Shown here: piece by piece, positions 23,069 through 43,643 of the stretch
How the letters are laid out: the number at the start of each line of letters is the position of its first letter
Numbering within the stretch: position 1 is the first letter of the stretch
From: Bacteroidetes bacterium GWF2_35_48
GTDB lineage: Bacteria; Bacteroidota; Bacteroidia; Bacteroidales; GWF2-35-48
Reading direction: 5' to 3'
Assembly: GCA_001769125.1 (NCBI GenBank)
Contig: MEOG01000002.1
Span: forward strand, 1 to 43,643
DNA length: 43,643 bases
Made by a program: the position numbers and the translations under genes
Notes under the pieces: generated by a model
Database searches by the model: none
Seen by the model: only the letters and a program-made list of their open reading frames with translations
What the model was told of the DNA's origin: nothing

Positions 23069-23500
23069 ATGATAAAAAAATCAAATATATTATTTTTCTT
23101 TTTATTTTTTATTATTTTGCTTACTACTTGTAAAAAAGACAACAACAATGGGCAAATTCCGAATGTTTACGTTAATTTTTATATTTATTTAAGCGATCCG
23201 GAATTTGCAGCATTAAATTCGGTCGGAACTGCTGTTAGGGTTACAGGTGGAGTAAAAGGGATAATTGTTTACCGCGCTACCTGGGATGAATTTATTGCAT
23301 TGGAAAGAGTTTCTTCTTACCAGCCGGAAAATCTATGTCCAGTAGAGATTGACAGTACCGGAATTTATGCAAAAGACCCCTGTAGTGAATCGAAATTTTC
23401 ACTTTTTGACGGAATGCCTGTAAAAGGTCCGGCTACTGCGCCTCTTAAGATGTACCGATCATTGTTTGATGGAACAAATTCTGTACACATTTTTAATTAG
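23069..23500 (+). CDS. Lipoprotein with degenerate Rieske-like fold
   Basis: A 143-residue protein with a lipoprotein signal peptide. The lipobox is LLTTC with the lipidated Cys at about residue 21, followed by KKDNNNG. The mature part (GGVKGIIVYRATWDEFIALE...SKFSLFDGMPVKGPATAPLKMYRSLFDGTNSVHIFN) follows the layout of Bacteroidota Rieske-domain lipoproteins. The [2Fe-2S] ligands are missing: the C-x-H pair is replaced by S-S-Y, and the C-x-x-H pair appears as PCSES without His. An iron-sulphur cluster is therefore not expected. A structural or binding role at the membrane is more likely. The fold assignment is from memory of the family pattern, not from an alignment. Confidence 0.75.
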   Translation: MIKKSNILFFFLFFIILLTTCKKDNNNGQIPNVYVNFYIYLSDPEFAALNSVGTAVRVTGGVKGIIVYRATWDEFIALERVSSYQPENLCPVEIDSTGIYAKDPCSESKFSLFDGMPVKGPATAPLKMYRSLFDGTNSVHIFN

Positions 23501-23539
23501 TGTTTGTCCAGAATGTCCGAGCATCGCACCAGCTGGCTC

Positions 23540-23558
23540 AAACAACCACCGGTTGTTT
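23540..23558. repeat. Small hairpin AAACAACC-ACC-GGTTGTTT
   Basis: A perfect 8-base stem with a 3-base loop, 40 bases downstream of the lipoprotein stop. It has no T-run, so it is only a weak terminator candidate. It stands immediately before the 65-bp element. Confidence 0.5.
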
Positions 23559-23563
23559 GTCCT

Positions 23564-23628
23564 GTTATGCTCATAATAAAAATAAGTCATTTACATCAGT
23601 AAACTCCTAATTTTTATTATTTCGCAAG
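23564..23628. repeat. 65-bp nested-hairpin element, copy 1
   Basis: The flank GTTATGCTC leads into an outer 10-base stem (23573-23582 with 23611-23620). Inside is AGTCAT, a 5-base inner stem (23590-23594 with 23599-23603, loop ATCA), then ACTCCTAA, and the element ends TTCGCAAG. Copy 2 at 43579 has the same length and stem positions but different stem bases, with pairing preserved. Confidence 0.85.
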
Positions 23629-23631
23629 CAT

Positions 23632-23644
23632 TTCGGCAAGCTCA
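23632..23644 (+). repeat. Dispersed motif TTCGGCAAGCTCA
   Basis: A copy of the TTCGRYAAGCTCA motif. It starts four bases after the 65-bp element, so the two may be parts of one larger repeat. Confidence 0.5.
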
Positions 23645-23741
23645 ATGTATCACCTTGAACTCGAACATTCTGACCTAAACACTATCTTTATGGGTCGCCA
23701 CGGCGACAGGCTCTCATTAGTTGTTTGCAAGAAATAGAATT

Positions 23742-27495: not shown

Positions 27496-30400
27496 TCAAT
27501 GTTGCAAATTAATTTTCACTAATTTCTTTATAAATATTCTATCATCCTGAATTATTCTGATAAAATAACTTCCATCTGGCAAATTAAATGATTCAAGCGA
27601 AATTTCAATCTTCCCCTCATAATGCTTTTCAATTAGACGAGTAAATAGTAACTCTCCTGTAATGTTAAAAAGCTCAATAAGTACTGGTAATGTATTTTCA
27701 AAATTATTTATCAGATAAATTTTTTCTGAAAACGGATTTGGATATAATTGCAGGCTCGTATTCAAAGAATTTTTATCAGAATACAAAAATCTTAAAGTAT
27801 CAATTGCGCCATTTGCAGGTGTTGTATCAACAATAAAATTAAAATTCCAGTGAATAGTATCATTGCCTTTAACTTCAAAATTATAAGTACTCAACTGCTC
27901 AAATCCCGGAATATCTACCCTTAAAGAATATTGTCCCCAACGTACATTCCTGAAAATAAATGCGCCATTTGTTACAGTACGTAAAGAGCGAACGCTTTTC
28001 ATGTCTGGTTTAAGTTCCATAAAAACATCAACATTCGGAACTGGCGCACCTAAAGCATCAGGATTATTATAATCCGCATAAAAAACTCCGCCTCTTACAT
28101 GACCAAAAGCAAGACCATTGTTATATCTTGAAGCAAGATTGATATTTGCCACAACAGAATCGCATAATATCTCAAGAGCCGTAGCCTCTTCCCACTCGGT
28201 TGCTAAAGAATCTTCATGGAAATAACTATTCAACGCATTTTCATACAAACTACCCGGGCTTTGATTAAGAAGAACCGCTTTTACAATATAGGTATCTTCT
28301 AATAATTGTGTAATACGATAATTGCCCTGTCCAAAAATTGTAATGACAGGAAAAACTTCATCATAGCCTCCCTTAGTACTAAGGGTCGTTGAGTAAATAT
28401 GAATTTCAAATTGATTATTTTCAACAGGAATGTTGTTATACTTAACGACACCGCTTATTTTACCTTGTGAGTAAGATACCACAACAGCATCTGACTTGTA
28501 GCAACCATTAGGCAGTGTAACCGTTACAGAGAAAGTTCCTGAAGTATTTATAGTAATTTGTTGTTGCGTTGAACCATTATTCCAAAGATATACAGAGCCC
28601 GGATTTCCCGCATCGAGAGTTACAGTTTGCGTGTTGCAAATACTTGTGTCATTTCCAAGACTTACTACTGGAACTTCTTTAATTGTAACAGTAACAGGAG
28701 TTCTTACCAGAGAAACACAGGAACCGGAAGAAGCCTCGGCATAGAAAACAGTATCTTCATAAAGAACAGGGGTTACAAAACTTGTTCCTGTCCCCATATT
28801 ATTACCACCTGTAGGCGCATCCCACCAGCTTACTGTTCCAAATGAAGCAATCGCACCTAATGTAACCGCGCCAGAGCCACAACGCGAAGCCGGGCTTGAG
28901 CCTGTTATCTGTGGAAGAGAACCAACTGTTACAGCCAGAGAACTAATATCGCTAACACCACACGAATTCTGGGCATAAACTTTAATGGTATCAGAAACTG
29001 CGCTTGAAGAATAATTTATGATAATGCTTGTATCTGTACTATTGCCGTTGTATCCGTTAGGCAAAACCCAAACATAGATTTCAGCATTTTCTACTTGATC
29101 AATAGTATAAGTTGCAGTAGAACCTGTACAAGCAATCGTATCTCCGAAAATCGAACCAAGCACACCTGGATAAGATTTTACTAAAACAGTAGTTGTATCA
29201 GAATATAAAATTCCGCAATATCCTCCGTCAACAGCGACTCTGTAGTCCCAAATACCTGCAACATCGGGCATTTCTGTGTATGTTACTGAGGTATTCACAA
29301 TATTTTCCCAAGTCCCACTATCGAATCTTTTTTCCCAATTCAAAACATTACCGCCATTTTCAGACAAAGTAAAATCAACAGATTCTCCAATACAAATCGT
29401 ATCATTTTCATTTAATAATCCAGCACTCACAACAGGAACAACAACTACTTCTACAGCGGTTGAAAAATCACTGGCACAAATACCATTCATAACTTCTGCC
29501 CTGTATTCCCATGTTCCATCCGAAGAAGGTATTTCAGAATACGTTGTATTTGTATTGATGATATCATCCCAAACTCCACTAGTTAAACGCTTTTGCCATT
29601 TTACAATACTTCCAGTATGACCTGTCAGAGTAAGTGTTTCAGTAGCTGAACCGAAACAAATCGTTGAACCGCCTAAAACTGCTCCTCCAACACTTCCGGG
29701 ATTTACTATTATTTCAGCAATAGAAGAATAATCTGCATTACAAACTCCATTCTGTACTTCTGCGCGGTATTCCCAAACACCTGTTGAGACAGGAATTTCC
29801 TGATACGATGAGCTTGTATTAATAATGTCAGTCCAACTGCCACCATCAATGCGTTTTTGCCATTTATTTATTACTCCGGTATATCCGGACAAAGACATAT
29901 TTCCTGTTGGTAATCCTTCGCAAATAGTTGTAGAACCGGAGAGAATTCCTCCAACAGAACTTTCATCAACAGAAATAGTTTTTACAGAAGAATAAAGAAT
30001 ATTTCCTCCATTATCCACAACTACCCTATATTCATAAATTCCAGCTAATGCCGGAGTTTCTGAATATGTTTCAGAAGTATTTGTAATAATCTCCCATATA
30101 CCACTGTTGAATTTTCTTTCCCATTGAGTTATTGTTCCGGTATAACCAATAAGGGTCATTGTCCCGGTTGATATTCCAAGACAAATAGGACTAGAACCGC
30201 CAGTAATAGCTCCTCCGCTTGATGAAGAAACAACTATTGAAATTACTGAAGAATAATCCTCTGAACACAATCCGTTTTGTACAACAGCTCTGTATTCCCA
30301 AGTACCTTCGGCAGATGGATTTTCGGAGTATGTATCAGTTGTATTAACTATATCCTGCCAAATTCCCCCATCCATTCTTTTCTGCCATTTCACTATGTTC

Positions 30401-33400
30401 CCATTATATCCTGTTAAGGTCATAATTCCTGTAGAATTTCCAAAAACAACAAATGCGCTACCCCCAGACAAAGTCCCACCTACAGAAGAGGAAGTTGCTG
30501 TTACTGTGATAGCAGACGAAGCTCCATCGCCACAAGAATTAGAAGGAACGACAGTGATATCGCCGGATACCACACCTGCAATTACAGAAATATCATTTGT
30601 ACCTGCGCCGGATGTAATAGTCCAATCGGAAGGTATTGCCCATGTATAAGTAACTCCATTCGTATTTACTACGGAATAATTTAACAATGCTCCTTCGCAA
30701 ACAGCAGTAGAGCCGAAAATTAAGCCGGGTTGAGCAGGAATATTATAAACTGTTGCAACAACCTCTATTCTGGGAGAAGAAGTACAACCGCCACTTGAAG
30801 CATCAACAAAATAAGAGATACTTGAAGAAATAGAAGGACTTGAAAAACTTGTTCCAGTACCCATAACAGAACCTCCTGTTAATGAATCGTACCAAGTAAT
30901 AGTTCCCGACGAAGAGCTTGCTTCAAGTGTAACAGTACCTGTGCCGCAACGCGAATCGGGAGTTGTGGATAAAATTGATGGTGTTGTGAAAATCGTAATA
31001 ATGATATTATCAGTTGCCGCCGGACAAGAACCATTTCCTGTTGAAGTAAGCGTGAGCGTTGCTATTCCTGCATTGATTTCCGTTGCAGATGGTGTGTATG
31101 CCATATTTAAGCTGGTATTACCCGGAGAATAATCTCCCGAACCGCCCGACCACTCACCGCCAGTAGCGTCCGAAACGGTTGCGCTCAAAAATGCCTGATC
31201 GCCTGCGCAAATTGTAATACCTAATCCGGCATTAACAGAGGGGGGCGTATTGATTGTTGCAGTAACAGGTGTACGCGGAGTAGAAAAGCAGAAACCGTCG
31301 TCAGCATCAACATAATATGTTGTGGTAACATCTATTACTGGAGTTGTAAAGGAAGTGCCTGTAACCATACCTATACCGCCTGACGAAGCGGCGTACCAAT
31401 AAATCGTACCGGAACTTGCCGTAGCTCCAAGAGTAACAGCACCAGTTCCACAATTAGAACCGGGAGTTGTTGTTGTAATAGAAGGACCGGAAGTAACAGT
31501 TGCGGTAATAGCTGTTCTTGTAGCAGTAGTACAACCATTATCTGTTGCATCCACATAATAAATTGTGGTAACCGATATTGAAGGCGTAGTAAAGCTTAAA
31601 CCAGAGCCAAGAAGTGAACCATCGGTTTCTGTGTCGTACCAGTTAACAGTACCAGAGCTTGCAGTGGCGTTGAGAGTAACAACTCCTTCTCCGCAACGGG
31701 ATGCGGGGGTTGTGGAGGTTATGGAGGGAATAACAAAAACTGTAGCCAAAATTTCTGTTCTTGATATTGAAACACAGCTACCACTAATAGCTTCAGCATA
31801 AAAAGGAGTGGTAACAGAAATTTCAGGTGTATTAAAAATGTCTCCTGTACCTGATGCTGTCACTCCGGAAGAAGTCGTATACCAATTAATTAGTCCCTCG
31901 GAAGCCGATGCACTTAGTGTAGCAATTCCAGTACCACATGATGAGCCCGGTGTTGTGCTTGTTATTGTTGGGAAATCATTAACAATTGCCATAACAGATG
32001 ATCTTGCAGGAGAAGTGCATCCGGAAGCAGTTGCATCACAATAATAAGTAGTAGATGTAGAAATTACTGGGGTTGTGAAAGAAGTACCTGTCCCAATAGT
32101 ACCACCAGTTGGTGAAGAATACCAATTAATAGTTCCGGCAGAAGCTGTTGCTCCCAAATCAACGGTACCAGAGCCACACCTTGATCCGGTAAATGTTCCG
32201 GTAATAGTTGGACTTGGTAATATTTCAATTGCATAATCAGGTGAATAATTCCCATCTCCACAGGTATTGCTTCCATATACCTTAAGATTTCCACTTGTAG
32301 AATTTGTAGCAAAATCAATAGTAATAGAATTTCCCGAGCCATTTATCGTTGCATTAGATCCAGAATAACTCCAATTATAGGTTGTTGCATAATTAATCGG
32401 AGAAACTGAATAGGTAATACCAGATAAACCATTGCAAACAGAAGCAGTACCCGTAATTAATCCTGGGTCGGCAGGGAATGAAAGGATTGTTAATGTTACT
32501 TCTATAGCAGAACTTTCAGTGCCACCTATTGTTTGGGTGCAATAATAGGTATAAACACCAGCAGTAGTTTGTCCTGTGGTAAAAGGTGTTCCACTATATA
32601 CAAGATTTGACAATCCTGCATCGCTGTACCATTTAATATCCGTTCCGGTGGCTGTAAGATTTGGGATAAAACCGCCGGCGCAAGCAACCTGATCAGAAGC
32701 AGTTGGTGGTTGTGTGCCTGAAGCAGGTGTCCACCTCCATGAAGAACCATCAGAAGTAACTGCATAACAAATCGCAGAGCTACCTGCTGTCCCATCACTA
32801 TTCTCTATACCAATAACGCCATTTCCATTTTCAAGTAATGAATTAGAAAGCAAATTTATTTCAATTACATTTGTCGTTTCATATAATAAAACCTGTGTAG
32901 AAACAAAATATCCACAACCACTGGCAGGGGTAATAAAATCTATCCAACTGACAACAAATATTCTATTAGGAGCACTATTTAAAGTCTGATACTTCCACAT
33001 TGAGCTACTGCCACAAGTTTTATCATATTTTAAATTATCCCAGTATGCAGCAATAATATTATTAGGTTCAGTTGCGTCAGGTAAACAATGATTTATGGCA
33101 GAAGTACTTGTTCCCCCAAACCGTATAAAACCATTTGCATTAACATAACAGCTTGTGTATTCTGTGCCATAAAACGAGAAAGGAAATGGGATTGTTCTTG
33201 TAACCCCGCCATTATCTGTTGAGGATGAATAAACATTTGTTGGAGATGAAGATATATCAATCCAGTTAAAAGGAATAGTGCTTTGCGTATAACTCTGGGC
33301 AATAGAATTCAAATTCAATATTCCTGAAAAAAATACAAGCAATATAAAGCCGACAAAGCAACTCCTGAAAAAAAAATTGCTTTGCTGTTTCTTCGTAATT

Positions 33401-33417
33401 ATGGTATTTAGCATCAT
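27496..33417 (-). CDS. Giant Ig-like repeat surface protein, T9SS type A substrate
   Basis: A 1973-residue protein. After a long signal peptide (about 1-41, ending NSIAQS) comes a nidogen-like domain (about 45-235: FPFSFYGTEYTSCYVNANGF...IIAAYWDNL). Next are six bacterial Ig-like units sharing RCGSGTVDLGATASAGTINW, between about residues 400 and 1580. Five other units sharing KWQKRMDGGIWQDIVNT...GTWEYRAVVQNG lie between the fifth and sixth. A carboxypeptidase-regulatory-like region follows (about 1650-1850), then a type A sorting domain (about 1887-1973: LYPNPFSEKIYL...ELFNITGELLF...LPDGSYFIRI...KKLVKI). It is likely an adhesin or matrix protein on the cell surface. The first ATG overlaps the stop of the upstream giant gene by four bases; a second ATG follows directly. 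Confidence 0.92.
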   Translation of the reverse strand: MMLNTIITKKQQSNFFFRSCFVGFILLVFFSGILNLNSIAQSYTQSTIPFNWIDISSSPTNVYSSSTDNGGVTRTIPFPFSFYGTEYTSCYVNANGFIRFGGTSTSAINHCLPDATEPNNIIAAYWDNLKYDKTCGSSSMWKYQTLNSAPNRIFVVSWIDFITPASGCGYFVSTQVLLYETTNVIEINLLSNSLLENGNGVIGIENSDGTAGSSAICYAVTSDGSSWRWTPASGTQPPTASDQVACAGGFIPNLTATGTDIKWYSDAGLSNLVYSGTPFTTGQTTAGVYTYYCTQTIGGTESSAIEVTLTILSFPADPGLITGTASVCNGLSGITYSVSPINYATTYNWSYSGSNATINGSGNSITIDFATNSTSGNLKVYGSNTCGDGNYSPDYAIEILPSPTITGTFTGSRCGSGTVDLGATASAGTINWYSSPTGGTIGTGTSFTTPVISTSTTYYCDATASGCTSPARSSVMAIVNDFPTITSTTPGSSCGTGIATLSASASEGLINWYTTSSGVTASGTGDIFNTPEISVTTPFYAEAISGSCVSISRTEILATVFVIPSITSTTPASRCGEGVVTLNATASSGTVNWYDTETDGSLLGSGLSFTTPSISVTTIYYVDATDNGCTTATRTAITATVTSGPSITTTTPGSNCGTGAVTLGATASSGTIYWYAASSGGIGMVTGTSFTTPVIDVTTTYYVDADDGFCFSTPRTPVTATINTPPSVNAGLGITICAGDQAFLSATVSDATGGEWSGGSGDYSPGNTSLNMAYTPSATEINAGIATLTLTSTGNGSCPAATDNIIITIFTTPSILSTTPDSRCGTGTVTLEASSSSGTITWYDSLTGGSVMGTGTSFSSPSISSSISYFVDASSGGCTSSPRIEVVATVYNIPAQPGLIFGSTAVCEGALLNYSVVNTNGVTYTWAIPSDWTITSGAGTNDISVIAGVVSGDITVVPSNSCGDGASSAITVTATSSSVGGTLSGGSAFVVFGNSTGIMTLTGYNGNIVKWQKRMDGGIWQDIVNTTDTYSENPSAEGTWEYRAVVQNGLCSEDYSSVISIVVSSSSGGAITGGSSPICLGISTGTMTLIGYTGTITQWERKFNSGIWEIITNTSETYSETPALAGIYEYRVVVDNGGNILYSSVKTISVDESSVGGILSGSTTICEGLPTGNMSLSGYTGVINKWQKRIDGGSWTDIINTSSSYQEIPVSTGVWEYRAEVQNGVCNADYSSIAEIIVNPGSVGGAVLGGSTICFGSATETLTLTGHTGSIVKWQKRLTSGVWDDIINTNTTYSEIPSSDGTWEYRAEVMNGICASDFSTAVEVVVVPVVSAGLLNENDTICIGESVDFTLSENGGNVLNWEKRFDSGTWENIVNTSVTYTEMPDVAGIWDYRVAVDGGYCGILYSDTTTVLVKSYPGVLGSIFGDTIACTGSTATYTIDQVENAEIYVWVLPNGYNGNSTDTSIIINYSSSAVSDTIKVYAQNSCGVSDISSLAVTVGSLPQITGSSPASRCGSGAVTLGAIASFGTVSWWDAPTGGNNMGTGTSFVTPVLYEDTVFYAEASSGSCVSLVRTPVTVTIKEVPVVSLGNDTSICNTQTVTLDAGNPGSVYLWNNGSTQQQITINTSGTFSVTVTLPNGCYKSDAVVVSYSQGKISGVVKYNNIPVENNQFEIHIYSTTLSTKGGYDEVFPVITIFGQGNYRITQLLEDTYIVKAVLLNQSPGSLYENALNSYFHEDSLATEWEEATALEILCDSVVANINLASRYNNGLAFGHVRGGVFYADYNNPDALGAPVPNVDVFMELKPDMKSVRSLRTVTNGAFIFRNVRWGQYSLRVDIPGFEQLSTYNFEVKGNDTIHWNFNFIVDTTPANGAIDTLRFLYSDKNSLNTSLQLYPNPFSEKIYLINNFENTLPVLIELFNITGELLFTRLIEKHYEGKIEISLESFNLPDGSYFIRIIQDDRIFIKKLVKINLQH

Positions 33418-36400
33418 TTGATAATAATCTTTTTGTTATAGATTTCGTTTTCGGTCGTACCGATAATCAAATATATTCCCGGTGGGATATTTGAATCAGG
33501 ATCAATTGCAAATATAGAATTTTCTTCTTTATCTGAAATAAAAACTTTACTGAAATACTCCCTACTCATAATATCACGTACAACAACAAGTACTTTTTTC
33601 TCTTCCTGTAAATTTTTCAAAGAGAAATAGATACGATCTCCTTTTCCGGCAGGATTTGGATAAACCAAAACCTCAACCTCTTTTTTCACTTCTTTAACCA
33701 CATAATATTCAATGGCAATCCATGCAGAATAGGTGTATTTCCCATCATAATCTGTTTGCTTAAGCCTGTAATAAGAAACCCCTTCATAAGGATTATAATC
33801 AAAAACCATGTAATTCAAAAGGATATTTGAATTCCCGGCACCTTTAACAGTAGCAACAGTTGAAACATTATTAAGGTCTGTAGATTTTTCTACTGTAAAA
33901 TAATCATTGTTTATTTCTGAATTTGTAGTCCAGGTTAATTGAACGATATCATTATTTATAGCAGCATCAAAATTAATCAGATTTATTGGCAATGCATTAT
34001 CTCCTGCTCCTGTATATTCACTAAATGAAGTAACCCCTGCCCATGTAAGCAAATTAGCAACTGTATTGCATGCTGTTGTACTTCGTGTCCACGTTCCACC
34101 GGAATATTTCGATAAAAATATATTCGCCTCAAAACCTACAACATCTGCATCTATATACGTAAGAGTAATATCATAATTTGGATTTGTAATACCACTTGGT
34201 TCAAGTGTCCAATAGCGATTGATATAGGAAGATGATGCTAATAAATTCGGATTAATTGCATTTCTTGTGTTTACCATAATATATGAAGATGATAAATCAG
34301 CACTGTTTAATGTAAAATAAAACTTCGTATAATTATTGTTGTCTCCCATTGGAATATCAAAAATCAACGGAACCGAAGCAATATTTTTCTTGATTACGCC
34401 CACACTGTGCGCCTGAATATAACTTGTTGCGCTTCCATTAGAAATAGTTGCGCCGGTAGAAAACACCAGATCATAATCACCCAAAACTAAATCACCTCCG
34501 GTAAGATTAAGATTATTTAAAATATTGATTGTACCAAATAATGATAAATCGGTTGCCCCGGTTTTATTTATTTTAAGATTATAATAATTTTGTGAAGCAC
34601 CGCAGTTAAATGAAGAATTAGTATTTCCGATAAATTCTACAGTACCAAGCCTTTCAATAAATGAGCCTGAATTGTTCCAATTACCTGAAGTTGTTATTGT
34701 ATAATTCCCACTGCTGCTTGCATCCAAAGTGGTTGAAGAGTTGGAAATATTCAATGAGCCGTTTACAGTAATACTTCCTGCCAGAATTTTAATTCCTGAC
34801 CCTCCCAGTATAAGATTACTGTAAATTAAAGCAGCAACCGGCTGATCTCCTGTTTTTGTATATGCAATCGTACTATTTGTATTTGCTGTAAATGCGCCGC
34901 CGTTCAGGGTAATCGTTCCATTGTTAATTGTCAGCGTGATATTATTATTAACAGTTACTGAACCTCCTGTAGAAATTTCTATAGAACCCACTGTCTGATT
35001 AACATTAACAAGCATATTGTGCAACACAATGCCATGCTGACCGCTACCGGGAGAAAATCCTGCCGACCAGTTTGTACCAACATCGAAATTTCCAGCTAAA
35101 ATAGTAACATTGCGTATAGTACCAATAGCTACAAAATTATTATCTGCGATACTCACGCCAAGCGCCTGATACAATGTTCCACCTGCAGAAGCCATTGGAT
35201 AAATAGTAGCGCCCGATGAAAAATCACCATCGGCATCAACAAGCAAAGTATAAGACTGGTAGCCTGGAGAAAGCGCAGGGAACGAAGCAATATCAACAGT
35301 AAATGTAAGGCTCCCTAAATCACCTCCTGATTCTTTAAACCTCCACTCAAGGGCTAATCTTTCAGTAAACACATTTGGCACTTCTGTTGCTGCCCATGCA
35401 GTAATATCCCCATTATCATGTGCAAATAAGAGAAACTCTCCATTGCCAAGATTATCTGCACCTCCAACTTTTAAAATATTTGCAGACATAGCAGCTGTAT
35501 GAAAATTGGATGCATCATCTCTACCGATTCCTGCCAAATCATACTTGAAGCCAGCATAACCTGTTTCATCAAATTTATCATTACCGCCCAAAGCTATTCC
35601 GTATCGCGTGCTCAGATAATTTTCTACTATTTTCTTTTGTGCAGTATTTAAAAACACCCTGTATTGAATAAGTTCAGCTATATTCACGTCTCCGTAATTA
35701 GCAGCATTTCTACCGATAGCTGGTGCTGTTGGAATTGAACTTATAGCTGTAATGGTTGCATTTGTGCCCAGTGACGTAGAGCTATTCTGATAAAAAAACC
35801 TGCCGGTAGAAGTACTAAACAATCCAGAATATATTCCATAAGTTGATGGCACAAGAGCAGAAGTACCAATAGAATAATTTGTATTCTGTCCGAAACGTAT
35901 ATTGCTTGCATCCGTACTTTGGTCTGTCCATTCAAGTGTTATAAATTGGTTCAGATTTGCAGTAGTCCCTCCAAGCACGGGATGAACAATTCCATTATTC
36001 CCTGTGGTTCTTGCACCAACAAAAAATACAGAATAAGGCTGATCGACAACTGTAGAGGAACCTGAATAATTATAATTCATGTAATCAGTATTCGCTTTTG
36101 TAAATCTTACAGCCGGCATACCTCCAATTGCAGGAGTCAGGTAATCTGGTTCCTTCCCTGATGGGCTCGTGGCATTGTTTCCATTACCGGAAAGATCATT
36201 CCAGTAAGTTACTGCACTTCCACTTGTTGTTGTATTGGTTCCATAATCTGCCCTTAGCCAAAGAACATTAAAATTATTATCTGTGTAATTATTCCCAACA
36301 CCTCCAGGACCAATAAATCCTATCCCATCATTATCATATATAGTGTAGGTATTTGTAAGTATTGTTCCAAGCGTTGCTCCGGTTGCTCCGGTTATTTCCA

Positions 36401-39400
36401 CACTAAATGTTTCATCCTGTTCAAGATCCGTGTCATCCAGAATCAAAGGTTCTATATTCAAAACTACACTTCCTGCCGGAATAATAATAGAACCGGGGAT
36501 GGAAGGAAGATTGTAATCATCCCCATCTCCTAAAGCTGTAATAGGTGTTACAGTGTAATCAACAGTAACATCAGCGCCTGAAGCAGCAGAAAGCGAAACC
36601 TGAATCAAGCCAGGAGATACACTTTCATCGCCCCCTGATGCAGCCTGTGTAAATTGAACAGTTGGTATTCCATCATTATCATTAATTGTATAAGTATAGG
36701 ATGTGTTCGTTAAAGCAAGATTACAATTAACAGGCGTTTGTAAAGAAACAATAACAGTTTCATTTGTTTCGTATAAAAAATCATCGGTAACGGTAAAAGT
36801 AAAACTCCCTGTTGTAAGACCTGCAGGAACAACAACATTAGCGGAAATTAATGTAAAATCCACACCACCACCAGTTGCAGTACCTCCGGAGACATAAAAA
36901 TTAGCCTGTGTAGGGTTTAAGGCATCTGCAACATTAATTTCAACATTTAAAGTAATAACATCCACACTTTCATCACCACTGGAACTGGTAGTTGAGAAGC
37001 TTATTTTTCTTGGATTGTCATCATCCTGAATTGTTAAAATATGACTTTGATTGGAACCAATGATAGCCCCATTTGCATTCGCAAGGGTTACAATAACTGT
37101 TTCATCTGATTCAAGAAGCACATCGTTGAAGATTCCAACCTGAACATAAGTAAACAGATTTCCGGGAGTAATAGTTGCTGTAAGAGGAGGGACAATACTA
37201 TAATCTGCATCTGTTGCAGTTCCACCTGTTACAGAAAAATCTACAGTAACATTAGACAAAGAAGGAGTACTAAGAATAACTTTCAATAATGCTGGTCCAT
37301 TGGGTTCAAAAATACCAGAATTTGCAAGTTCAAACTGAATAACCCTTCTTGCAACAGCAATGGTAACAAAATCAAGATCATTAATTATTACATTACTGGC
37401 AGAATAACAGGTACCGTCTTCTAATAAAAGTGGATATTGTGTTGCACCGGAGCTGAAATCGCCATCTGCATCAACTAGCAGGACATAAGTTTCATACCCT
37501 ACGGGGGGTGCCGGAAAACCAGCAACATCTATTGTAGCAGTAACAGAAGTAATAGTTCCACCTGTCTGATCGAACCACCACTCACGCGCAATTCGTTGAA
37601 TATTACTACCTGCATTCGGAGCTTCTGTTGTTGTCCATGAAGATACAGATGCATTATCGTGCCCAAAAAGCATATACACATTATTTGCAAGACCAGCAGG
37701 ACTACTGATCTTTAAAATATCGGCAGACATTGCAGCTAAATGGTTGGTTGCATCAGATGCCTGACCTACGCCTGCAACATCGTAATTATGGGCAACATCT
37801 AAAGTATATTTATCATTTGAAATAGTAATATTATATTTTGAACTTAAATAATTATCTACAATGATTCTCTGCGCTTCATTCAGATATTTATTATACACAA
37901 TTATTTCAGAAAGATCGCCTGTATAATGTGCCGCGCCATCGGTAGTTGCACCTACCGTGAATAAACCCGGATTAGCAGAAGTTGCTAAAATAGTATTATT
38001 ACTTGTCGTTAATGTTGTTTCATCTATCAGATTATTTCTGAGTGGACCTGTATTTGTAACTCTGTTCGCTGCAATATGTGCATTTCCATTATTACAGACT
38101 CCTCCATCAATGAAATCATCCTGCCCTCCTCCTCGCCGAACATAAAAACCAGCTTCCGTGGCTGTACTATTAATTACTCCCTCTAATAAAGGATTGGTTT
38201 CTGTAGCATCTCTTTTAAAAGACCAAAACCTTCCTGCATTATTTGTTGTTGTTTTAAAAACAGTGAAAGCAGATACATTTTGAATAGCTCCTCCTAATAC
38301 AGCATTTGAAGCAGGTCCCTTAACGATATCATCTGATCCATCAAAACGCACTACTGGTCTGCCATTTAAAATGTTTGTATAAAATACAGGTTGCTTGCTT
38401 CCGGTTGCCTGAGATATGTTATTTGCATTTCCTGAAAAATCATTCCATTGCTGAATAGGGTTTCCATTTGTTGCAGGAGTAATCCCGGCATCTGAATACA
38501 ATCCTACATCCCCTTTCAACCAAAGCAAATTTGTATTTCTGTCTCCGACCCCACCCGGACCCGTATAACCCAATGATCCTTCATCGTCATAAATCGTATA
38601 CGTACATTGCGTATTTACACCAACACTTGCATTTGATGCACCCGTAATATCCACCTCAAAGGTTTCTGCATTTTCTGTTTCAGAGTCATTAATAATTGAA
38701 GCGCTTATATAAGCAGACAATGTGCCAGCAGGAATAATTACAAAATAAGGAGTTTCTAAAATAAAATCATCACCATTTGTTGCAGAAACATCAGTAACAG
38801 TATAATTAACCGTAACATCCTGCCCTGAAATTGTTGAAAGACTTACCTCCATTTTACCAGGAGTAACATCTTCGGCTCCTCCGGCTGCAACCCATGTAAA
38901 CTGAACAGAGGGTACAACATCATTATCTGTGATTGTATAGGTATAGGTATAATTGGGACTAAGAGCCAAACAACCATTTTGTGGATTTGAAAGCTGAATA
39001 ATAACCGTTTCACTTGGCTCACTTAAGAAATCTTCAGAAATCTGTAAAGTAATAGTTGTGGTAGTTGAGGTATTATCTCCCGGAATAGTAGCAGTAATTT
39101 CTGTCAACCCGTAGTCAGAAAAAAGACCTGCTGTGCCACCAATAACAAAGAAATCAACTGTAATAGGAGAAGTACTTGGCAATGTCGCCTGTATTGTTAT
39201 TGTAACATTACCAACACTTTCAAGACCTGAACCGGTAAGTGTCTGGAAACTTATTTTTCTTGCATTATCATCATCGTGAATGGTAAACGTAAATGTAGAA
39301 TTCGTTCCGATAACAACTCCTGCAGAAGGATTGGACAAAGTAAGAATAACCGTTTCATCTGATTCTACAGTTATATCGTCAATAACAGTTAAACTAATAA

Positions 39401-42400
39401 TAGTACTTGTATTTCCTGCTGTGATTGTAGCGGTTCCATTTGCAAGAATAAAATCATTGCCAACTGCGGGACCCGGTGTAGCCGTACCACCTGTTACAGC
39501 ATAATCAACTGTAACATCAGTAGCCATAGGATGATTAATACTAATGGTAATAAAACCCGGACCCTGTGGTTCCAGACAACTTCCTGTTGTAGCAGAAAAT
39601 TGAATCAATGTTTTGCTACATCCTACTGCGAACATATAATTGTCTGACACTACCACATTCGTTACAGAATAAGTACCGTCTCCGTTATCAGTCATTTTGT
39701 ATTGTGTGGCACCTGTAGTGAAATCTCCATCTGCATCTACAAGTAAAATGTAATTATCATAACCTGCAGGAAGGGCAGGTAGCAAGGAGGTTTCAAAAGT
39801 TACAGAAACATTGTTAATTGCAGTAGCACCGGTAATATTTGTTCTCCATTCTCTGGCAAGGCGATAAAAATTTGATATTCCTGAAGGGATTTCAGAAGTA
39901 GTCCATGCGGCGATGCTTGCATTGTCGTGACCAAAAAGCATAAAACTGCTGTTTGCCATTGGGGTTGGACCGCTAACCATAAAAATACCTCCACTCATGG
40001 CAGCAGTATGTAAACTACCATCACTAGCTTGTCCAACTCCTGCAACTTCGTATTTATGGGAGTTATGAATGAAAATATCATTTGCAATGGAAATTCCATA
40101 CTTTTCAGCAAGATAATTCTCAACTATAATCCTTTGTGCCTCGTTCAAGCAACGTGTATACAATATGTATTCAGCGACATCGCCCATATATTGCATGTTA
40201 GAACTGGTTCGTGCGCCTAATGTAAATGGACTTGTATTATCATTTACTCCTAAAATATCTTTGTTGTCGTTATCCCGTTGAGTGCCTTGTGTGAAAAAAA
40301 GTCTGTCTGCTCCTGCAATAGGTTGATTCGAAAACAGGGCGCTCATTAAATACGTGTTACCGTTATTATACACCAAAGAGTTATCAGAAAAATAATCGTC
40401 TTGCGGATTAGTGGATTTTCTGTTATAAATACCACATTTCCCTGAAGCACCATAATTTAAACAACCCTCGAGAAGAGGATTGTTTGATCCATCACGTTTT
40501 ACAGACCATATCCGGCTATCAGTAGTTGAACCACTTCTGAAAATTGTGAATGCAGATAAATTCTGAATACAACCCCCAAGCAGCGATGTACTGGAAGGTC
40601 CTGTTAATATATCATCAGTCCCATCAAAGCGCACAACAGGTTGCCCGTTCATTACACCAGTAACATAAGAAGGCTGTAAAGAACCTGTACCCTGAGACAG
40701 ATCATTGGAATTTCCGGAAGCATCTGGCCATGAGCTAACAGGAGAAGAAGAGAGATCGCCTGCTCGAAGCCATACAATATTGGTATGATAATCGCCAACG
40801 CCACCGGGACCTTTATAGCTCATTGAATTATCATTATCTGAAATAGTGTAGGTGGCCACACTGTTTGCGCCTATAGTAGCAGTAGCACCAGTAACTGTTG
40901 TCAATGTAACAGAAAAAGTTTCGTTCACTTCAACAATAGCATCATCTACAATGACAGGCTGAATATTTGCAGATAAAGAACCTGCAGGAATCGTAATAAA
41001 TCCATTCGCAAGAATGTAATCCACATTTGCAGTAGCAGAACCGGCAGCAACAGTATAATTGACAGAAATATTTCGTCCGGCAAGACTGTTAAGACTGACC
41101 TCCATTCTACCAGGAGACACATCTTCTGCGCCGCCGGGAGCAGTAAAAGAGAATTGAACTGTAGGTAAGGCATCATCGTCAGTAATTACATACACAAATT
41201 CTTTTGCCCCTGGATCTATTCCAGCCCCAACCGGGTTTGATAAAGCAATAGTGAAATCCTCATCGCCCTCACTTAAAATATCCTGACTTACAAACAATGT
41301 TATTGTTGCAGTTAAATCACCAGCAGAAATTATAAATGAACCAGAAAGTGAATAATCTACACCCCCTGAAGTAGCAGAGCCACTAGTAACAGAATAGTCA
41401 ACTGTAACATCAGAACCAGAAATCATATTCAATGTAACTTGTATAGGAATTCCAGTAGTTCCTTCATCATTTCCGTCAGAAGCTAAAGAAAAACCAACCA
41501 GAATAGGGTTATCATCATCATTAATATAAAATATATGTTGTAGTGAAGTTCCAAGTTGCCCAAAACTAACAGCATCAATATCAATAACAACTGTTTCATC
41601 TGGTTCAATGGTGGCATCATCCACTGCATCTATATAAATTTCGGTTGTGGTTGTTCCGGCAATTATTGTAATCGGACTTGGTGATGAGATAGAATAATCT
41701 GCAGGATCAAGAGCAGTACTTGCTCCATTGATAGAAAAAGTAACATCAATATCTGTACTTACAGCCCAGTTTAAGTTAACTTCAATAATATTAGTAATAT
41801 CGGGTTCTATTAAAGTAGAACTTACAATATTAAAAGAAACAACTGGTCGAACACAAGATATTGCAACATGAGAGCCATCAGCTAAAGAAATATTAGCAAC
41901 TTTATAAATACCCCCACCTTGAGGTATCAATCTTCTATTAGTAGAACCACTTGAAAAAACTCCGTCTGCATCAACCATTAAATAATAATCAGTATATTCT
42001 ACAGGAAGAGCAGGTAAGGTTGAAACATCAATATAAACATCCACGTTTCCAACAGAACCTGTTTGTTTTACAATCCAGTCCCTTTCAAGCCTCTGGATGT
42101 TTCCTAAAGTTGGCGTGTTTACGCTTGTCCATGCAGTAATATCTCCATTGTTATGTCCAAAAAACATCCATTCATCATTACCTAAATCTGTAGGATTATT
42201 TATTTGTAAAATTCCGGCAGACTTTGAATCATCATGTGGTGTAGCAGTACCTGATTTTCCTATCCCGCATAAATCTTGAGAATGTGTTGAATAGGGATAA
42301 AAATCATTAACAATCTCAATGTTATATTTTTGAGATAGATAATTTTCTACTATAATTTGTTCAGATCTATTTAATGCTGTGTTGTAAATAATTAATTCTC

Positions 42401-43145
42401 CTATGTCCCCTGAAAAAACTTTAACTCCATCCGTTTGAGCCCCAATAGTGAATAATCCAGTATTTCCAGCAACAGAGGCGACAATTTGGGGTGTGAAATT
42501 AAAATCAACACCATTGTAATATAAATATTGCTTATTTGTGGGTACTTTCGTATTAACAGATAAAATAAAATTAGTTCCATTATTATAAAAGCCATTGTCA
42601 GTCGTGTAATCATCTGCCCCCCCCCCTGCTCTTCTTGTATAAAAACCACCATTACGAGTACCTCCATTATTAAATACTGCTTCAAATAAAGGATTTGTGC
42701 CTGCGTCTCTTTTAAACGACCACATACGGCTATCTGTAGAAACCTGAGTTCTAAAAACGGTAAAAGCAGTAAGATTGGGCTGGTTGTTACCAATAATTGC
42801 ATTTGAAGCTGATCCGTTTATAATATCATCAATACCATCAAAACGAACTGCAGGGTAACCGGAAAAAACATCGGCAGCAAGAACAGGTTTTTTCGTGCCT
42901 GTTAATTGGTTTAAAGTAAATCCGTTTCCAGAAAAATCATTCCATTGCTGAATAGAAGAACCATTGGTAGCAGGAGTAACCCCGGCATCTGTATAAAGAC
43001 CGGCGTCTGCTTTTAACCAAAGGCGGGTATTGGCAGAATTACCAACACCACCAGGACCCGTTTGCGCAAACCCTGCCAAGGGAATAATTAACGCAAAAAA
43101 TAGCCCTAATTGACTAATAATATTTATTCTATGGCGTAAAAACAT
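33414..43145 (-). CDS. Giant modular LamG-like / Calx-beta surface protein, T9SS type A substrate
   Basis: A 3243-residue protein with a signal peptide (about 1-27, ending AGFAQ). Four modules begin with GPGGVG at residues 30, 779, 1529 and 2279. Each starts with a concanavalin/LamG-like domain (WLKADAGLYTDAG, VRFDGIDDI, FTVF..., IIVENYLSQKYNI). A conserved domain I recall as DUF8202 follows (VAGVGQASD...ILKI...FGHDNASIAAW...YVLLVDADGDF). The first three modules then carry three Calx-beta domains each (SGSDVTVDYSVTSGSATSGG...EGDEDFTIALSNP...TDDD). The fourth instead leads to a beta-helix-like stretch, an Fn3-like domain (INLINFDA...NDYFTVEKS...YYRLKQTDYDGKYTYS) and a type A sorting domain (about 3157-3243). 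Calx-beta domains bind calcium, so a calcium-stiffened surface fibre is likely. A G10 run interrupts module 1 without breaking the frame. Confidence 0.93.
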   Translation of the reverse strand: MFLRHRINIISQLGLFFALIIPLAGFAQTGPGGVGNSANTRLWLKADAGLYTDAGVTPATNGSSIQQWNDFSGNGFTLNQLTGTKKPVLAADVFSGYPAVRFDGIDDIINGSASNAIIGNNQPNLTAFTVFRTQVSTDSRMWSFKRDAGTNPLFEAVFNNGGTRNGGFYTRRAGGGADDYTTDNGFYNNGTNFILSVNTKVPTNKQYLYYNGVDFNFTPQIVASVAGNTGLFTIGAQTDGVKVFSGDIGELIIYNTALNRSEQIIVENYLSQKYNIEIVNDFYPYSTHSQDLCGIGKSGTATPHDDSKSAGILQINNPTDLGNDEWMFFGHNNGDITAWTSVNTPTLGNIQRLERDWIVKQTGSVGNVDVYIDVSTLPALPVEYTDYYLMVDADGVFSSGSTNRRLIPQGGGIYKVANISLADGSHVAISCVRPVVSFNIVSSTLIEPDITNIIEVNLNWAVSTDIDVTFSINGASTALDPADYSISSPSPITIIAGTTTTEIYIDAVDDATIEPDETVVIDIDAVSFGQLGTSLQHIFYINDDDNPILVGFSLASDGNDEGTTGIPIQVTLNMISGSDVTVDYSVTSGSATSGGVDYSLSGSFIISAGDLTATITLFVSQDILSEGDEDFTIALSNPVGAGIDPGAKEFVYVITDDDALPTVQFSFTAPGGAEDVSPGRMEVSLNSLAGRNISVNYTVAAGSATANVDYILANGFITIPAGSLSANIQPVIVDDAIVEVNETFSVTLTTVTGATATIGANSVATYTISDNDNSMSYKGPGGVGDYHTNIVWLRAGDLSSSPVSSWPDASGNSNDLSQGTGSLQPSYVTGVMNGQPVVRFDGTDDILTGPSSTSLLGGCIQNLSAFTIFRSGSTTDSRIWSVKRDGSNNPLLEGCLNYGASGKCGIYNRKSTNPQDDYFSDNSLVYNNGNTYLMSALFSNQPIAGADRLFFTQGTQRDNDNKDILGVNDNTSPFTLGARTSSNMQYMGDVAEYILYTRCLNEAQRIIVENYLAEKYGISIANDIFIHNSHKYEVAGVGQASDGSLHTAAMSGGIFMVSGPTPMANSSFMLFGHDNASIAAWTTSEIPSGISNFYRLAREWRTNITGATAINNVSVTFETSLLPALPAGYDNYILLVDADGDFTTGATQYKMTDNGDGTYSVTNVVVSDNYMFAVGCSKTLIQFSATTGSCLEPQGPGFITISINHPMATDVTVDYAVTGGTATPGPAVGNDFILANGTATITAGNTSTIISLTVIDDITVESDETVILTLSNPSAGVVIGTNSTFTFTIHDDDNARKISFQTLTGSGLESVGNVTITIQATLPSTSPITVDFFVIGGTAGLFSDYGLTEITATIPGDNTSTTTTITLQISEDFLSEPSETVIIQLSNPQNGCLALSPNYTYTYTITDNDVVPSVQFTWVAAGGAEDVTPGKMEVSLSTISGQDVTVNYTVTDVSATNGDDFILETPYFVIIPAGTLSAYISASIINDSETENAETFEVDITGASNASVGVNTQCTYTIYDDEGSLGYTGPGGVGDRNTNLLWLKGDVGLYSDAGITPATNGNPIQQWNDFSGNANNISQATGSKQPVFYTNILNGRPVVRFDGSDDIVKGPASNAVLGGAIQNVSAFTVFKTTTNNAGRFWSFKRDATETNPLLEGVINSTATEAGFYVRRGGGQDDFIDGGVCNNGNAHIAANRVTNTGPLRNNLIDETTLTTSNNTILATSANPGLFTVGATTDGAAHYTGDLSEIIVYNKYLNEAQRIIVDNYLSSKYNITISNDKYTLDVAHNYDVAGVGQASDATNHLAAMSADILKISSPAGLANNVYMLFGHDNASVSSWTTTEAPNAGSNIQRIAREWWFDQTGGTITSVTATIDVAGFPAPPVGYETYVLLVDADGDFSSGATQYPLLLEDGTCYSASNVIINDLDFVTIAVARRVIQFELANSGIFEPNGPALLKVILSTPSLSNVTVDFSVTGGTATDADYSIVPPLTATITPGNLFTYVQVGIFNDVLLESDETVIVTLANANGAIIGSNQSHILTIQDDDNPRKISFSTTSSSGDESVDVITLNVEINVADALNPTQANFYVSGGTATGGGVDFTLISANVVVPAGLTTGSFTFTVTDDFLYETNETVIVSLQTPVNCNLALTNTSYTYTINDNDGIPTVQFTQAASGGDESVSPGLIQVSLSAASGADVTVDYTVTPITALGDGDDYNLPSIPGSIIIPAGSVVLNIEPLILDDTDLEQDETFSVEITGATGATLGTILTNTYTIYDNDGIGFIGPGGVGNNYTDNNFNVLWLRADYGTNTTTSGSAVTYWNDLSGNGNNATSPSGKEPDYLTPAIGGMPAVRFTKANTDYMNYNYSGSSTVVDQPYSVFFVGARTTGNNGIVHPVLGGTTANLNQFITLEWTDQSTDASNIRFGQNTNYSIGTSALVPSTYGIYSGLFSTSTGRFFYQNSSTSLGTNATITAISSIPTAPAIGRNAANYGDVNIAELIQYRVFLNTAQKKIVENYLSTRYGIALGGNDKFDETGYAGFKYDLAGIGRDDASNFHTAAMSANILKVGGADNLGNGEFLLFAHDNGDITAWAATEVPNVFTERLALEWRFKESGGDLGSLTFTVDIASFPALSPGYQSYTLLVDADGDFSSGATIYPMASAGGTLYQALGVSIADNNFVAIGTIRNVTILAGNFDVGTNWSAGFSPGSGQHGIVLHNMLVNVNQTVGSIEISTGGSVTVNNNITLTINNGTITLNGGAFTANTNSTIAYTKTGDQPVAALIYSNLILGGSGIKILAGSITVNGSLNISNSSTTLDASSSGNYTITTSGNWNNSGSFIERLGTVEFIGNTNSSFNCGASQNYYNLKINKTGATDLSLFGTINILNNLNLTGGDLVLGDYDLVFSTGATISNGSATSYIQAHSVGVIKKNIASVPLIFDIPMGDNNNYTKFYFTLNSADLSSSYIMVNTRNAINPNLLASSSYINRYWTLEPSGITNPNYDITLTYIDADVVGFEANIFLSKYSGGTWTRSTTACNTVANLLTWAGVTSFSEYTGAGDNALPINLINFDAAINNDIVQLTWTTNSEINNDYFTVEKSTDLNNVSTVATVKGAGNSNILLNYMVFDYNPYEGVSYYRLKQTDYDGKYTYSAWIAIEYYVVKEVKKEVEVLVYPNPAGKGDRIYFSLKNLQEEKKVLVVVRDIMSREYFSKVFISDKEENSIFAIDPDSNIPPGIYLIIGTTENEIYNKKIIIK
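42617..42626 (-). repeat. G10 homopolymer run inside the 3243-residue gene
   Basis: Ten consecutive G on the coding strand encode part of R-A-G-G-G-A-D-D near residue 174. The equivalent stretch in module 3 encodes R-R-G-G-G-Q-D-D with interrupted codons and no run, so the protein does not require the homopolymer. Confidence 0.9.
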
Positions 43146-43578
43146 ATAGTTTTTTTTAATATAAATCTGTTCAATAACAGTGTACCAATCCTATATATAC
43201 GATAAAATTATTTTAAAGTTTCAAAAAAACATATAAATATAAATTATTTATTGTAATTTAGATGTATATTTTTGGCGAACCCTTTATTTTTGTTGATGAA
43301 AATAAAAAATTTGACCTTTCATATAATATATAATAATTGTACGTATATTATAAAATATTGTTACAAAATTTAAACATTTAGTCTACTTCGAAAAGTTCTT
43401 TTGACACAAATTGTTTTTTAAACACAAAGATAATCAACATATTAAACCTGCCTTGTAGATTTACCTGGTGAAAATTTACCTGTAATAAACAGCTACCGTG
43501 TGGACACATCTTTTTTTTAGCTGGATTTTGTCACAAAATTTGCATACTTAGTGCCTGCAAGAAAACATCAATTTCATC
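43146..43578. other. AT-rich region upstream of the giant-gene operon
   Basis: No gene was found in this gap. It should hold the promoter of the giant-gene operon, but no TTTG-N19-TAnnTTTG pair could be placed with confidence. The best A/T-rich -7 candidates lie at 43190-43220. A small palindrome, TTTTGT-C-ACAAAA, occurs near 43527, and ATTTACCTG occurs twice near 43458 and 43477. Confidence 0.45.
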
Positions 43579-43643
43579 GTTACGCTTGACCTGAAAAGTA
43601 GTCATGTACATTAGTACACTCCTAATTTTCAGGTCTTCGCAAG
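43579..43643. repeat. 65-bp nested-hairpin element, copy 2
   Basis: Same layout as copy 1: GTTACGCTT flank, outer 10-base stem (43588-43597 with 43626-43635), AGTCAT, inner 5-base stem (43605-43609 with 43614-43618, loop ATTA), ACTCCTAA, and TTCGCAAG. The window ends at the last conserved base, so the element may extend further. Confidence 0.85.

Follow-up and report, generated by a model that had tools for sequence, protein, structure and literature searches.

A structured repeat of Bacteroidetes bacterium GWF2_35_48 is the core of a MITE and resembles the core of ERIC

For decades, ERIC repeats have served as a typing tool. To our knowledge, both their mover and the function of their core are open questions, and we know of no insertion sequence (IS) that moves them. 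In Yersinia, ERICs touching stop codons were reportedly found by De Gregorio et al. in 2005 to share one orientation and to affect the mRNA. ERIC is described as a 127-bp MITE-like repeat with a TA duplication (PMC2759123, PMC2229807), which is reported from Enterobacteriaceae and Vibrionaceae (PMC10969869) and whose orientation is crucial, its effect on mRNA stability through RNase E being orientation dependent (PMC2229807, PMC10969869). STAXI is a structured motif that may act as RNA or as single-stranded DNA according to its authors (PMC2864571). Among the matches listed in a search of the open-access literature, none linked ERIC to elements of Bacteroidota.

The window analysed here, a stretch of 43,643 nucleotides, is an entire contig (C2) of the GWF2_35_48 genome, which comprises 5.98 Mb in 142 contigs. 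Two stretches of 65 bases at positions 23564-23628 and 43579-43643, in which the first-pass annotation had seen two nested stems, were reread and agree with its description. Their outer stem (offsets 10-19 and 48-57) reads ATAATAAAAA/TTTTTATTAT in the first and GACCTGAAAA/TTTTCAGGTC in the second copy, so that five of the ten pairs differ, all five being compensated. The inner stem (offsets 27-31 and 36-40) consists of TTTAC/GTAAA and TGTAC/GTACA, respectively, with one differing pair that is likewise compensated, and the unpaired parts AGTCAT, ACTCCTAA and TTCGCAAG are conserved between both copies. Elsewhere in the window, two giant adjoining ORFs of 1973 and 3243 aa lie on the minus strand (27496-43145).

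The pattern shared by the two copies lies far outside what chance would produce. In its exact form, the core pattern matched 17 times in the genome and the reversed control pattern not once, whereas a looser pattern gave 22 matches against two for the control. The covariance model R1 was built from 34 variants (alignment A1), after five of 39 distinct cores had been removed (two with loop insertions, one chance match and two near-duplicates). It reported 132 core copies in the genome at E<=0.01, which may be a lower bound, as 150 of 6481 first-look candidates were scored. Thus, the genome search disclosed many copies and not just the two of the window, and their stem changes are not the uncompensated ones that would have spoken against the earlier reading, since both A1 and the more diverse alignment A2 revealed strong covariation (see below).

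Comparison of the flanks revealed conserved borders beyond the core, with ends of the form AGTGTTTGTCCATAA..TTATGGACAGACACT or AGTGYCWGCAAGAAAAC. Ends were picked by their inverted repeat alone, with a threshold of at least 12 of 16 matching positions; 91 of the 132 copies passed, while the 41 copies without clear ends were left out of all counts of ends and duplications. Most copies with clear ends (76 of 91) are 140-194 bp long. Identical 4-bp flanks, all of the form A..T, were found in 74 of them; re-paired flanks gave only 11.9 identical cases on average and a maximum of 24 in 1000 trials. Because 66 of the 74 duplication-bearing copies have a T before and an A after the repeat, the target is TANNTA, of which the four base pairs ANNT are duplicated. 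According to their ends, 57 copies belong to the GCAAGAAAA type and 29 to the TCCATAA type, five not clearly belonging to either; both types insert at TANNTA and duplicate ANNT. The element is thus short, encodes no protein, and possesses terminal inverted repeats and a target duplication, the features by which MITEs are recognized. The 65 bp are the core of a non-autonomous transposon of mostly 140-194 bp. The element of the first-pass annotation is real and structured, but its limits had been drawn too narrowly, as they enclose only the middle of the MITE. Two elements of about 40 bp made up of ends only (L316, 233-270; L322, 176-215) are flanked by perfect 4-bp repeats and a third one (L324) by a repeat matching at three of four positions, from which we concluded that the core is dispensable for some transposition events.

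In the window, MITE copy 1 lies on the minus strand and covers positions 23499 to 23683, the right limit being approximate. It belongs to the AGTGTTTGTCCATAA end type, its ends being TCCATAA-like, and starts with AGTGTTTGTCCAGAATGTCCG directly behind the left 4-bp target repeat AATT (23495-23498), whose right partner is lost. The inner right end reads AAACACT; the outer right end is altered, only the relic CTTTATGG being left beyond AAACACT, while intact copies exist elsewhere in the genome. An ORF of 143 aa on the plus strand (23069-23500) terminates at the left border, its stop codon TAG taking its first letter from the end of the target repeat and the other two from the beginning of the element. 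The structured core (23561-23634, minus strand) scored 84.8 bits with R1. Within it, the 3' arm of the outer stem P2 on the functional strand (23573-23582) pairs with the 5' arm (23611-23620), and the inner hairpin P3, i.e. TTTAC/GTAAA with its loop, occupies 23590-23603, all of them on the minus strand. MITE copy 2 (43550-43643, minus strand), which has ends of the GCAAGAAAAC type (AGTGCCTGCAAGAAAAC), runs off the contig end. It is preceded by ACTT (43546-43549), its right flank lying beyond the contig end, and its core (43576-43643, minus strand), truncated by the contig end as well, scored 75.8 bits. At 23512-23562 of the window, and in copies with GCATTTCGGCAAGCTCAATGTATCACC or CCTGCC..GGCAGG, small part-palindromic inserts were seen at recurrent places of otherwise intact MITEs. 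At two loci (L014, L022), a MITE copy abuts the end of another transposon, as if a later insertion had used one end as its target.

An intact IS of 1644 bp with the ends AGTGTCTGTCCATAA and AATT flanks was identified on contig C133 (L063, 387-2030). It encodes an ISNCY-family transposase of 443 aa (NF033593, 332 bits at a cut-off of 325), which also matches Pfam DDE_Tnp_1 (30.7 bits, cut-off 23), and this IS gave the only NF033593 match over the cut-off in the genome. Several contigs have their limits within a related sequence that carries this end, too, and is 83-84% identical to the IS over the available 78-94 bp. The terminal repeats and the 4-bp duplication of the IS are common to one MITE end type (29 of 91 copies). 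This makes movement in trans by DDE transposases likely, and judging from the common ends and duplication, it is likely an ISNCY-family transposase that moves the AGTGTTTGTCCATAA-type copies. For the commoner GCAAGAAAA ends (57 of 91 copies), the search of the genome for a partner IS yielded only contig ends inside another repeat. With the AGTG(T/C)C(A/T)GCAAGAAAAC and GGGCACCTCTA ends, the search for a partner IS gave only contig ends in other repeats that begin with these ends. A second, weak ISNCY match (L311, 20.4 bits) was also discarded; it is without these ends and, from its ORFs, looks like a broken IS1182-like gene.

REP and REPIN sequences are short multicopy palindromes with conserved flanking bases, and it was to such elements, moved by RAYT-type Y1 enzymes (IS200/IS605-like), that the repeat had been compared at first sight. 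The GGAGT motif beside the hairpin fits this interpretation, as do ten Y1 (PF01797) matches in the genome and the presence of PF01797 in 24 of 26 element-bearing genomes. The other two genomes (G052, G106), however, carry elements without any Y1 match. No core was detected near the ten Y1 loci within the flank of about 1.5 kb or up to the contig end, the nearest one being located about 2.4 kb away (C82). The RAYT gene flanked by the element that one would predict did not show up among 30 Y1 loci either: R2, a further covariance model, found the core in only two of them, both chosen for their core, at 1.6 and 4.1 kb from the gene. The lack of cores around the Y1 genes and the two genomes without Y1 leave a REP-like origin unsupported; the inverted ends, the target duplications in 74 of 91 copies and an end type in common with a DDE IS point in another direction, so that we regard movement by a Y1 enzyme as extremely improbable. 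Several Y1 matches per genome with lower scores and frames of about 320-350 aa were noticed in Chlorobium-like genomes (for example L336, L338, L339), possibly a RAYT-like group of their own.

To return to the core of the DDE-type MITE, its structure was studied with A1 and with A2, which contains 69 cores from many organisms (57 of 83 cores of other species and 12 of the own genome). In A1, 97.3% of the cells form pairs, compared to 83.1% after shuffling (reached by none of 500 shuffles) and 38.8-47.6% with slid partners; 11 of the 21 pairs have changed on both sides, to which three of 500 shuffles came up; the covariation score reached 0.403, compared to 0.146 for shuffled alignments (none of 500). 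Without guidance, RNAalifold predicted the same 21 pairs and one further pair for A1. The diverse set gave a similar result with 89.3% pairing cells versus 74.6% in shuffled alignments, 15 of 21 pairs changed on both sides and a covariation score of 0.376 versus 0.127 (none of 500 shuffles), while the number of pair types was unremarkable, being reached by 105 of 500 shuffles. Beside the inner hairpin, non-standard positions are fixed in A2, namely an A.G in all 69 cores and a G.U in 67, the other two having G-C, and a tandem GA/GA is found mid-stem in 13 of the 69 cores. Across phyla, the stems differ as blocks while the loops stay fixed. Covariation and conserved loops support the earlier proposal that selection acts on a structure together with fixed single-stranded sequence. 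No match to Rfam release 15 was obtained at the element in the loci searched at gathering thresholds, and none of the low-score matches at E<=5 overlapped it.

It might be argued that the complementarity goes back to a few master copies and to hairpin template switching, which repairs imperfect palindromes, and that the core has no function at all. Eight clusters indeed hold 91 of 108 cores, and of 22 private changes at paired sites only 14 keep the pair, eight breaking it. Palindrome repair does not account, however, for the conserved unpaired positions and the nearly invariant A.G and G.U, nor for stems that change as blocks around loops fixed across phyla, and private changes are if anything rarer at paired (22 of 3815) than at unpaired sites (20 of 2085), these numbers being small. 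Together, this renders a core without function improbable. The count comprised 91 copies in eight clusters, after 24 of 132 cores had been set aside for their unusual length and 17 of the remaining 108 for belonging to small clusters; the private mutations are too few to tell whether selection continues after insertion.

Which strand is the functional one was approached by folding. With RNA parameters, all of the 75 distinct own cores folded better on the minus strand of the window (mean -25.3 versus -16.0 kcal/mol), and the same strand was preferred in 73 of 83 cores of other species, the reverse in five. DNA parameters favoured this strand as well, though less clearly (66 of 75 own and 58 of 83 other cores). 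Counted as alignment cells, which are not independent events, G.A mismatches outnumber C.T mismatches in the diverse set (57 versus 7 in stem columns, 58 versus 29 in all pairs) and in the own genome (18 versus 3), whereas G.U against A.C, with the two near-fixed G.U columns excluded, gave 29 versus 9 in the own genome and 23 versus 28 in the diverse set. The wobble test is thus mixed, as the counts of the diverse set do not favour RNA over DNA. The better fold of the minus strand and the G.A asymmetry corroborate a function of the reverse strand, as had been suspected, and disfavour a plain cruciform, in which both strands would be selected equally. Coding on the minus strand, suggested by an AGGAG-ATG-like start and a frame that is open through the left end, was rejected because stretches of 11 and 12 nt following ATGACT put the families out of phase.

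On the minus strand, the outer stem extends into the terminal repeats. It is followed by an internal loop that is conserved (AAGGC..GCGNAG / RAGCG..AACGC), a stem whose sequence is free and in which tandem G.A pairs are frequent, and finally a second conserved loop (AGU / AUGA) and the UUAC/GUAA hairpin. Orientation was counted with the functional strand running from left to right, ORFs being called mechanically; in the own genome, 17 of 132 copies (four inside genes, 13 at edges) were omitted. The right neighbour gene pointed into the element in 76 versus 39 cases in the own genome (p 0.0007) and in 49 versus 21 cases in other records (p 0.001). No clear bias was seen for the left neighbour (55 versus 60 and 32 versus 42, respectively). 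Of the copies, 75 have matching ends together with perfect repeats; in 24 of these, a stop codon was located at most 6 bp from the right end, compared to four with one at most 6 bp from the left end (p 0.0002), and at a limit of 60 bp the counts were 30 and 11 (p 0.004). The orientation bias was absent from a Chlorobium-like sample (7 versus 12); its 13 copies of the GGGCACCTCTA end type are not all independent, as L301 and L304 have common flanks and L131, L140, L156 and L173 also entered the count of other records.

The mRNA of a gene whose stop codon is touched by the element would carry the weaker-folding complement. A strong fold is seldom found immediately behind a stop codon, as though transcripts were disturbed by it, and the weaker complement appears to be tolerated at this place, which suggests that the fold acts on transcripts. 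The result could be an orientation-dependent effect on the fate of the mRNA, like the one proposed for Yersinia ERIC. We see about even chances that the core has such a putative role in RNA, in transcripts at gene ends.

The main rival of this interpretation is a role in DNA: during replication or transposition, the minus strand could fold as single-stranded DNA, join the ends or bind a host protein and thereby make the MITE more mobile. In its favour, the outer stem consists of the terminal repeats themselves, and in the diverse set G.U does not exceed A.C. When flanked as in pyrimidine-GA-purine, tandem G.A pairs are stable in DNA as well, for which reason they were also counted for a DNA role. 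On the other hand, the strands are told apart less well by DNA than by RNA folding energies, a role in DNA would not be expected to depend on how genes are oriented at stop codons, and the ends-only elements moved without any core. We therefore consider action as single-stranded DNA possible but rather doubtful.

The structured core has a counterpart in Enterobacteriaceae. While the first-pass annotation knew of no named family with this layout, the core of the E. coli ERIC has the same one. In 50 kb of one E. coli genome, ERIC was the sole match at E<=10 with R1 (29.2 bits, E 3e-5) as well as with R2 (21.2 bits, E 0.007), these E-values being rough. It aligned across the whole model in the same orientation, with the same loop nucleotides in the same order, and its strand of this orientation again folded better (-32.8 versus -22.5 kcal/mol). 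A 44-base query joined from the two ERIC primers was present in 5375 of 5426 E. coli genomes. At two of four E. coli sites (ybhI, cusC), the stop codon of the right gene lies 2 or 7 bp from the end of an ERIC in the same orientation; this placement was absent at the other two (pgk/fbaA, mobH/ardC-like). Compared with what characterizes ERIC, our elements exhibit the conserved core, i.e. the ERIC primer sites, in its structural context, albeit with modest scores, and the preferred orientation beside stop codons with the exception of the Chlorobium-like sample. They are no 127-bp units with a TA duplication, and on account of their 4-bp duplication we call them ERIC-like and not ERIC proper.

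The core is distributed widely. A strict pattern matched at least 117 stretches in a genome collection; among the 80 matches listed were Marinilabilia, Anaerophaga, Alistipes, Bacteroidaceae, Tannerella, Saprospiraceae, Cryomorpha and Balneolales, but also Chlorobium, two Clostridia, one Clostridiales MAG and Billgrantia. One viral contig harbored the pattern, too, while blastn with one element revealed no match in phages. Out of 395 sampled genomes of the phylum, 42 were positive with R2 (E<=1e-4) and two with R1. All but three of these 42 belong to one family (f19), which is probably Chlorobiaceae, given that its elements closely resemble that of a Chlorobium record (L156). In a MAG of Dysgonamonadaceae (L144, 53-227), a copy of the core was noticed about 20 bp from a tRNA-Gly gene. 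The ends vary by host (AGTG..., GGAAGTTGTATAACAAG, GGGTGACTCAAAAGG, GGAGATGAATAAAAAG, GGGCACCTCTA). Copies of the Chlorobium-like GGGCACCTCTA type showed exact 4-bp target repeats of mixed sequence in seven of 13 cases, and in one genome (G149) six contig ends fall within another repeat, which starts with an end of this type; for the Alistipes-type and Bacteroidaceae-type ends, no target duplication was established. From the differing ends and the mixed duplications, we concluded that at least two kinds of transposon ends carry one core. As MITE-like elements of several phyla carry the core between ends that are unrelated, it was probably inherited or exchanged as a module.

Blastn with two elements against a plasmid collection yielded matches in Pseudomonas, Halomonas and Candidatus Fukatsuia (three records) and in Escherichia, Salmonella, Klebsiella, Comamonas, Aeromonas and Yersinia (18 records). 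Of these, the copies from Pseudomonas and Halomonas scored 51.0 and 50.6 bits with R2 and 23.1 and 19.8 bits with R1. Two intermediates from E. coli and Klebsiella (L361 and L362) reached 25.2 and 23.3 bits with R2, no feature being annotated under the match, and were not reported by R1. These two (2501-2560 in both records) represent a core-bearing element of E. coli and Klebsiella that is distinct from ERIC, with ends like GCCTATCCCAGT.., and for which blastn also lists Salmonella.

Could the likeness to ERIC have arisen by convergence, since a short palindrome might make all structured MITEs look similar? The ERIC stem is shorter and its target duplication differs (PMC2759123). Identical loop nucleotides in identical order over the full model, a sole match in 50 kb, the same better-folding strand and the intermediates in Pseudomonas, Halomonas, Klebsiella and E. 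coli argue against it, and we believe convergence to be unlikely. We read the present element and ERIC as probable members of one ERIC-like superfamily, a homology that rests on limited conserved positions and on the intermediates.

Taken as a whole, the repeat is, with good probability, the structured core of a MITE that IS transposases mobilize in trans, and a portable hairpin of an ERIC superfamily. A wider idea, which might equally turn out right or wrong, is that an ancient, pan-bacterial structured module includes the ERIC core as one of its members, is exchanged among MITEs that depend on unrelated DDE transposases, and persists because its fold benefits the carriers, for instance by way of a conserved host factor bound in RNA or single-stranded DNA. 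If so, ERIC would be an orphaned branch whose lost mover could be deduced from its relatives. As the same core occurs with strong covariation in Bacteroidota, in relatives of Chlorobium and in Gammaproteobacteria, once together with an intact partner IS, both questions about ERIC become testable, and a structural model of the loops, the G.A pairs and the strand is supplied for this. It also adds a structured family without a match in Rfam release 15 in the loci searched.

Several described systems share some of these properties. Correia/NEMIS elements are structured MITEs as well, whose transcripts form long hairpins (PMC2229807), and QMITE2 resembles our element in its location at 3' ends (PMC10969869, PMC5896051), but Correia/NEMIS and the QMITEs have other ends and other duplications. 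STAXI is similar in being a structured motif with a possible action as RNA or single-stranded DNA (PMC2864571); it folds into a pseudoknot and is not known to be carried by MITEs. REP/REPIN sequences with their RAYTs are likewise short multicopy palindromes with conserved adjacent bases, whereas the present element has target duplications and showed no Y1 linkage in the loci read. The ISNCY-family IS (NF033593) agrees with one MITE end type in its ends and its 4-bp duplication and, unlike the MITE, carries no copy of the core. The closest system is ERIC, which differs by its length of 127 bp and its TA duplication from mostly 140-194 bp and the 4-bp ANNT of our elements, and which has a shorter stem; moreover, one end type of the present elements is accompanied in the genome by an IS with the same ends, whereas no IS is known to move ERIC. 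Both have in common the core AGGAGY-TTAC-N4-GTAA-RTGACT, the flank GAGCG(T)AACGCA, the better fold on the same strand and a MITE-like nature.
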